In this document: positions 25,061-26,805 of the stretch, in pieces
Position numbering within the stretch: the first letter of the stretch is position 1
Layout: the number at the start of each line of letters is the position of its first letter
NCBI GenBank assembly: GCA_013306675.1
Contig: JABLUY010000022.1
Span: forward strand, 1-64,000
Reading direction: 5' to 3'
Length of the DNA stretch: 64,000 bases
From: Thraustochytrium sp. TN22
Lineage: Eukaryota > Sar > Bigyra > Thraustochytrida > Thraustochytriidae
Program-made: the position numbers and the translations under genes
Notes under the pieces: generated by a model
Told to the model about the DNA's origin: nothing
What the model saw: the letters and a program-made list of their open reading frames with translations, nothing else
Database searches by the model: none

Positions 25061-26095
25061 ATGCTGGCGCGCGTGGTGCGCGCGGCGGCGCCGGCGGCGC
25101 CGCGCGCGTGGGCGGCGGCGGCCGGCCCGGCGGCGCTGCCGGCGCTGGCGGCGCGCGGCGTCGGCGCCGAGGCGCGCGGCCTGCACGGGTCGGCGCGCCT
25201 GGACAAGGAGCAGGGCGGCGCTTCGAGCATCGACAGCCTGCTGCACAAGGGCAAGGACGGCGTGGAGTTCGCCGTCACGCAGCTCGACAATGTCGTCAAC
25301 TGGGCGCGCAAGGGCTCCATCTGGCCCATGACCTTTGGTCTCGGTACGTAGGACGAGCGCGCGAGCGCGCGAGCGCGCAGGGATGCAGAGACGCAGGCAT
25401 GGTTACGCCACCACAGCGCGTGCTTGCCATCCGCCAGAGCGAAAGAGAGAGGGACAGACAAGAGACGGACAGTGGGAGAGAGGGCGAGACGGGAGGGGCG
25501 CCCCGATCCGAGCCGAGCCGAGCTGAGAGCGGTAAACTGACGACTCACCCCTTCACGCAGCCTGCTGCGCCGTTGAGATGATGCACACCCAGGCCTCGCG
25601 CTATGATATGGATCGCTTCGGTATCGTGTTCCGCGCTTCCCCCCGTCAGAGTGACGTCATGATCGTCGCCGGCACGCTCACGAACAAGATGGCCCCGGCG
25701 CTCCGCAAGGGTAAGTCGGAGCGACGCGACGCGTGTTGCGGAGCGTTGCGAGATCGAGACCGTACTGACAAATCATGCGTGCACAGTCTACGATCAGATG
25801 CCCGAGCCCCGCTGGGTCGTGTCCATGGGCAGCTGCGCCAACGGCGGCGGCTACTACCACTACTCTTACTCCGTGGTTCGCGGCTGCGACAGGGTAAGTC
25901 ATCTCGTTTTGTGCGAAGTTGTCTCGCTGCAGTGACTGACTAGCGAGTCCGACTTTTCAACCAATGCAGATTGTTCCCGTGGACGTCTACGTGCCGGGCT
26001 GCCCGCCGACGGCCGAGGCTCTCCTGTATGGTCTCCTGCAGCTGCAGAAGAAGATCAAGTCCAACCGCTCCCTGACTCTGCGCCTCCGCAGGTAG
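25061..26095 (+). CDS. NDUFS7: NADH:ubiquinone oxidoreductase PSST/NDUFS7 subunit (spliced, four exons)
   Basis: Exons 25061-25343, 25561-25710, 25787-25893 and 25970-26095 join to 666 nt, 221 residues. Introns are 217, 76 and 76 bases, all GT-AG (gtacgt, gtaagt, gtaagt donors). The N-terminus ([17 protein letters not shown]) is a mitochondrial presequence. The mature part carries the iron-sulfur N2 ligands: CC in [10 protein letters not shown] in [13 protein letters not shown] and C in [14 protein letters not shown]. This is the complex I subunit that holds the terminal N2 cluster at the quinone site. The C-terminus [15 protein letters not shown] is shorter and less aromatic than the usual WYRR-type end. 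The last exon is the apparent source of the satellite that follows. Confidence 0.96.
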
Positions 26096-26119
26096 AAACA
26101 TTCGTAATAACTACGTCGC

Positions 26120-26805
26120 GTTTGCAAACACTTGCTCCAACTCCGCGATGTCAAGAAGATCAAGACTCTACGCGTCTCCAGGAAGAAACACTCTCGTTGA
26201 GAGTTAGTTGCTCCAACTCCACTTGCTTGCTGTGCGATGTCAAGAAGATCAAGACGCTACGCGTGCGTCTCCAAGTAGAAACACTCTCGTTGTCACTTCC
26301 TACCACAGCATGCTCCAACTCCACTTGTTTGCAGTACCTTGTCAAGAAGGTCAAGACTCAACGCGTTTCCAGGCAGAAGCAGCAAAACAATTGCTCCAAC
26401 TCTACTTGCTTGCTGTGCGATGGTTTATAAAAAGAAGATCAACACGCGTCTCCAGGTAGAAACACTCCTCTACGCGTCTCCAGATAGAAACACTCTCGTG
26501 GAGAGTTAGTTGCTCCAACTCCACTTGCTTTCTGTGCGATGTCAAGAAGATCAAGACGCTACGCGTGCGTTTCTAGGTAGAAACACTCTCGTTGTCACTT
26601 CCTACCACAGCATGCTCCAACTCCACTTGTTTGCAGTACCTTGTCAAGAAGGTCAAGACTCCACGCGTTTCCAGGCAGAAGCAGCAAAACAATTGCTCCA
26701 ACTCTACTTGCTTGCTGTGCGATGGTTTGAAGAAGATCAACACTCCACCACGCCTTTCCAGGTAGAAACACTCTCCTTGGAACTTTGTACGCCTCCTTGG
26801 CAATC
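26120..26805 (+). repeat. Satellite array derived from the 3' end of NDUFS7
   Basis: Eight diverged units of about 80-105 bases, each containing tgctccaactc-acttg, then gtcaagaagatcaag, acgcgt-tccagg and (t/a)agaaacactc. Unit starts lie near 26131, 26209, 26306, 26392, 26510, 26608, 26694 and 26797. A higher-order period of about 302 bases makes 26208-26415 nearly identical to 26510-26717. The segment aagaagatcaag plus actctacgcgtctccagg aligns with the final codons of NDUFS7 (aagaagatcaag, 15 bases absent, then actctgcgcctccgcagg), including the stop and the following aaaca. In the gene frame each unit reads KKIKTLRVSR, matching KKIK-TLRLRR of the enzyme. Confidence 0.9.

Follow-up and report, generated by a model that had tools for sequence, protein, structure and literature searches.

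The NDUFS7 gene and its downstream array

The window, a 64,000-nucleotide stretch of contig C144 in a 37.9-Mb Thraustochytrium assembly (window G+C 67%), harbors NDUFS7, which encodes the PSST subunit of complex I. Joining its exons yields a 221-aa product that matches PDB NDUFS7 chains (best E 1.6e-91) and carries a Pfam Oxidored_q6 domain (E 1.8e-29); the stop codon occupies 26093-26095. A comparison of NDUFS7 with plasmids matched 247 records, with prokaryotic relatives among the three matches listed. The C-terminus aligns without gaps to PDB NDUFS7 chains, presumably mammalian, as far as residue 220 or 221 of 221 in the five alignments shown. Local matches to plant, fungal, and other PDB chains end earlier, mostly near residue 213.

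A decayed tandem array lies 3' of the gene, running from 26153 to about 26843 (Table 1) and thus past the end at 26805 that a first-pass annotation had given it. The repeated unit spans the last NDUFS7 codons and the stop and continues for 57 bases into the 3' flank; the gene itself supplies the first copy. The units stand head to tail with starts 84-112 bases apart, the layout of a local minisatellite. Each full unit presents AAGAAG(A/G)TCAA, a tail segment, AGAA(A/G)CA, and GCTCCAA(C/G)TC in that order; the gene carries the same series, its last element beginning 39 bases past the stop, and the gene tail with its 57-base flank is therefore unit 0. Seven AAGAAG(A/G)TCAA starts lie downstream of the gene (eight with the gene, family D5). 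Tail-like segments number eight downstream (nine with the gene, family D2), which bears out the initial observation that the units repeat the final codons of NDUFS7; the extra segment, at 26468, belongs to a composite unit at a block junction, of which it forms the second half.

The units have diverged in length and frame. Fifteen bases of the gene tail are absent from most units, as the annotation had described, but the deficit in the last unit (26730) totals 12, the units at 26242 and 26544 contain an additional 4 bases, and several units are out of reading frame. The 302-base higher-order period noted earlier is real: 26166-26426 and 26468-26728 match at 97% over 261 ungapped bases, and the match extends to 26467 and 26773, respectively, with two indels. 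Two blocks this alike mark a region in which mis-assembly is possible, yet the many substitutions and indels between units show that these are not read duplications, which leaves only the copy number of the block exposed to error; that the array is an assembly artefact is most improbable.

Unit 7 has CGCCT in common with the gene, at a position where CGCGT or TGCGT occurs in the other units. It also matches an extended piece of the 3' flank (score 29, attained by 1/2000 shuffles), although the upstream part of that piece is weak alone (48/2000 shuffles). These features of unit 7 and the flank match fit the idea that the outer units might be older forms.

Table 1. Coordinates of NDUFS7, the units and blocks of its downstream array, and the duplication at the ELP3-like gene (window positions).
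Feature	Position	Strand	Details
NDUFS7 (complex I PSST subunit)	25061..26095	+	Four exons: 25061-25343, 25561-25710, 25787-25893, 25970-26095
Unit 0, source copy: last 15 codons, stop, and 57 bases of flank	26048..26152	+	Unit-profile match, shuffle test
Unit 1, without the 15 bases	26153..26241	+	Unit comparison
Unit 2, 4 extra bases in tail part	26242..26343	+	Unit comparison
Unit 3	26344..26431	+	Unit comparison
Composite unit 4, block junction: unit-7-type start 26432-26467 and unit-1-type copy 26468-26543	26432..26543	+	
Unit 5	26544..26645	+	99/102 aligned bases same as unit 2
Unit 6	26646..26729	+	82/84 aligned bases same as unit 3
Unit 7, last copy, in frame: KKINTPPRLSR*	26730..26843	+	
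302-base block, first copy	26166..26467	+	
302-base block, second copy, 306 bases	26468..26773	+	
ELP3-like gene, probable stop-spanning duplication	53214..53485	+	123/160 aligned bases

Homology of the array to the gene tail

The array is homologous to the NDUFS7 tail. Gene tail and flank together (26048-26152) score 44 against the array, while the best of 1000 dinucleotide shuffles scores 32, so that the above-background match between last exon and units, which the first-pass annotation had set as its test, is reached by 0/1000 shuffles. Most of the signal sits in the 57 bases past the stop, whose score alone is also reached by 0/1000 shuffles; the coding tail alone is borderline (19/1000), and the upstream portion of the last exon, 25970-26047, has no match to the array (547/1000). 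Derivation of the unit from the last exon, as first proposed, thus holds for the tail from 26048 onward but not for the remainder of the exon, and the unit also contains 3' flank. A profile built from seven units (1, 2, 3, the second half of 4, 5, 6, and 7) finds a single match in the array-masked window, at 26048-26144 (E 6.3e-7). The gene-to-array match proceeds colinearly through tail, stop codon, and 3' flank, the arrangement of a partial tandem duplication.

The direction runs from gene to array. Because the gap-free PDB alignment of the C-terminus includes the 15 bases missing from the units, these bases are native to the gene and were therefore lost by the units rather than gained by the gene; the gene copy, and not the units without 12 to 15 bases, is the ancestral form. 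The weak match of the coding tail alone might suggest instead that a satellite of separate origin had been inserted next to the gene, its likeness to the tail arising by chance or through later exonisation of the satellite. Such an origin is highly improbable: the gap-free alignment with PDB NDUFS7 chains means that the gene tail did not derive from the array, the gene-to-array match continues colinearly into the flank, and the assembly search found the array at no other place. Seeding of the array by NDUFS7, as annotated, is supported by both the native 15 bases and this single locus.

A 1-kb query against the assembly returns one place, with no other copy found. A 22-base pattern with up to three mismatches occurs at 6 places, all within the array; a 23-base pattern occurs at 9, comprising 6 in the array and 3 on contigs C37 and C55 with three mismatches, and these three do not extend (E 3). 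All such counts are lower bounds, as the search scored only the best candidates and skipped common words. The unit profile finds none in 254 kb of DNA from the same genome (best E 3). A search for the same array at many unrelated loci thus yields one locus in the assembly, and a dispersed satellite family is rejected within these lower-bound counts. Near-alike sequence does occur at three places, twice on C37 and once on C55 (L013, L014, and L015), and is perhaps a dispersed element; it has no relation to the array (E 3).

The array is neither a recognizable structured RNA nor a coding sequence. Rfam gives no match to 25900-27000 at E up to 1, and neither strand of the array folds better than shuffled sequence (z +1.09 and +1.27, 20 shuffles each), so a structured RNA is rejected. 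Two stop-to-stop frames, one of 164 codons (25936-26430) and one of 208 codons (26510-27136), overlap the array in part, but both fail the codon score used for gene calls, and no ORF of at least 100 codons in the array passes it; a coding array is likewise rejected.

A functional 3' UTR module is a further candidate. The array begins at the stop codon within the 3' flank of the gene, and within the unit GCTCCAA(C/G)TC and the AAGAAG segments are preserved best; repeated sites for an RNA-binding protein might control NDUFS7 mRNA stability or its placement near mitochondria. However, the Puf3-type motif TGTANATA is absent from the array, and the folding is not unusual. Genes of unrelated function also precede arrays (see below), whose units differ by eye and give no match to the unit profile. 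Regulation of this kind is accordingly considered unlikely. Neither 26096-26850 nor 26851-27543 contains TGTANATA, AATAAA, or ATTAAA; one TATAAA lies at 26426, and TGTAA occurs at 27376 and 27425.

Tandem duplications at other gene ends

Tandem duplication of complex sequence recurs at stop codons in this genome. A scan of twenty 10-kb stretches plus the window (264 kb) detects 12 arrays, compared with 0 in each of three shuffled sets; the NDUFS7 array is detected only from 26141. Without NDUFS7, 11 arrays are left, 4 of which contain a called-ORF stop codon. Four more lie no more than 600 bases after a stop, so that 8/11 contain a stop or follow one within that distance. The remaining three are situated inside an ORF, 245 bases upstream of the ELP3-like ORF described below, and near no called ORF end. 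Gene calls here are codon-score ORFs (n=92) with uncertain starts and introns, and NDUFS7 is not among them, but Pfam matches support all four genes with included stops (HSP20, RabGAP-TBC, ELP3-like, and MFS). Scan filters removed arrays found by TRF; examples are L026 3910-4036, which lies 23 bases past a stop, and L031 8878-9018, which has no called ORF nearby.

Two of the four cases are clear. In the HSP20 gene of L029, two identical 201-base copies include about the last 10 codons, and the duplication plainly crosses the stop. The copies (5032-5433) cover tail and 3' flank, partial copies adjoin them (L029:4963-5437), and a CTTG of four bases is shared at the duplication junction. The RabGAP-TBC gene of L030 has a copy of its final 24 codons together with the stop and flank (189/208 aligned bases). 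A tandem duplication at the ELP3-like gene of the window probably crosses the stop codon: 53214-53306, upstream of the stop (53365-53367), recurs 179 bases on, past the stop, but with a weak match over the stop codon itself. The array at the MFS gene of L034 covers just the stop codon and one preceding base. The suggestion that such an array is special to a respiratory-chain gene is therefore not supported, given clear duplications across the HSP20 and RabGAP-TBC stops and a probable one at the ELP3-like gene within 264 kb.

Several neighboring features accompany these genes. A second HSP20 gene lies near the L029 case (3706-4566, minus strand). The ELP3-like ORF has Radical_SAM, Radical_SAM_C, and GNAT matches, and a hydrophobic C-terminal extension past the acetyltransferase match falls partly inside the duplicated segment. 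Upstream of this ORF, a 60-base tandem repeat at 50468-50681 perhaps codes for a 20-residue repeat. The same genome also has a 1719-residue frame with two FabA domains and a desaturase fused to cytochrome b5; both presumably resemble thraustochytrid PUFA enzymes and would point to a thraustochytrid-like host.

Placement of the arrays suggests a bias toward gene 3' ends. Ten of the 11 arrays fall outside called ORFs; scattering these at random over sequence outside called ORFs would give 1.4 that include a stop (P 0.031) and 3.4 that include a stop or lie in the 3' flank (P 0.0023). An ORF 5' end lies within 600 bases of 2/11 arrays (expected 4.3/10), one of these being the HSP20 case. Arrays that span an ORF 5' end number 0 in the 264-kb scan, where 1.3 are expected, a lack that is not significant (P 0.25).

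A matched sample points the same way with less force. It comprises 40 gene 3' ends (14 proteasome, 6 Ras, and 20 mitochondrial carrier genes) and 20 five-prime stretches of proteasome and Ras genes, all taken from the top of match lists; one stretch, L077, has only 594 bases at a contig end. Complex tandem duplications occur in 7/40 three-prime and 0/20 five-prime stretches (Fisher P 0.084, threshold 18), although a five-prime match in L062, whose complexity rounds to the cut-off, failed narrowly. Among the seven, L085 has a 19-base exact copy across the stop. With the complexity filter off (threshold 20), the counts become 15/40 and 7/20. The G+C content of the five-prime stretches is 71%, versus 60-62% for the three-prime ones. 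In L080 (G000:C22:187560-188310), units of about 147 bases are first seen 17 bases after a mitochondrial carrier stop, and the array overruns the examined stretch (TRF 3.5 copies, 93% matches).

Origin of the array and known systems

The array most probably arose, with a probability of about 0.8, by neutral local tandem duplication of the NDUFS7 tail across the stop, followed by decay and amplification. The initial event would have duplicated the segment from the last NDUFS7 codons, across the stop, to about 57 bases downstream; as the upstream copy completes the gene, it would have been harmless. On this account, which is the simplest, a stop-crossing duplication would be tolerated, and its spare tail left to drift and expand, because the whole gene stays upstream. 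Freed from coding constraint, the downstream copies would then have drifted, losing 12 to 15 bases and in several cases their frame, and further unequal exchange or slippage might have raised their number. About five copies including the gene (the gene and four units) would have existed before duplication of a 302-base block, roughly three units long, gave the present eight tail segments. In this sequence of events, the HSP20 duplication would resemble a first step and the NDUFS7 array a late one.

The last unit offers a counterpoint to neutrality, in that its in-frame KKINTPPRLSR* could hint at constraint. One short frame of this kind can survive by chance, and the array may be under selection.

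NDUFS7 is a clear case of a gene that seeded its own satellite. Because the upstream copy stays whole, a duplication that crosses the stop costs little. A wider proposal, that gene 3' ends in this genome are favored for tandem duplication and that recurrent stop-spanning tail copies feed satellites and occasionally new C-termini or 3' UTRs, with NDUFS7 as an advanced example, is tentative and somewhat doubtful. If the 3' bias of these small samples holds genome-wide, new 3' sequence would arise repeatedly from gene tails of this kind, and annotators should be prepared for spurious matches to gene tails 3' of genuine genes.

A literature search found nothing on this subject in the portions covered, but three known systems invite comparison. 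Minisatellites and VNTRs in 3' untranslated or flanking regions, such as the 40-bp VNTR at the 3' end of human SLC6A3, resemble the NDUFS7 array, with its higher-order block duplication, in placing tandem units of tens to about 100 bases at a gene 3' end. The NDUFS7 array differs in that its unit demonstrably contains the last codons and stop of the gene itself. Partial tandem gene duplications can leave tail pseudo-copies, and there, as at NDUFS7, a head-to-tail part copy decays while the intact copy stays functional; at NDUFS7, however, a very short segment of about 105 bases was copied, and it was amplified repeatedly. Gene-derived satellites are known from tRNA, 5S, or rDNA spacer units, in which genic sequence likewise seeds an array, whereas the NDUFS7 array has eight tail segments at the single locus found, with no spread seen.
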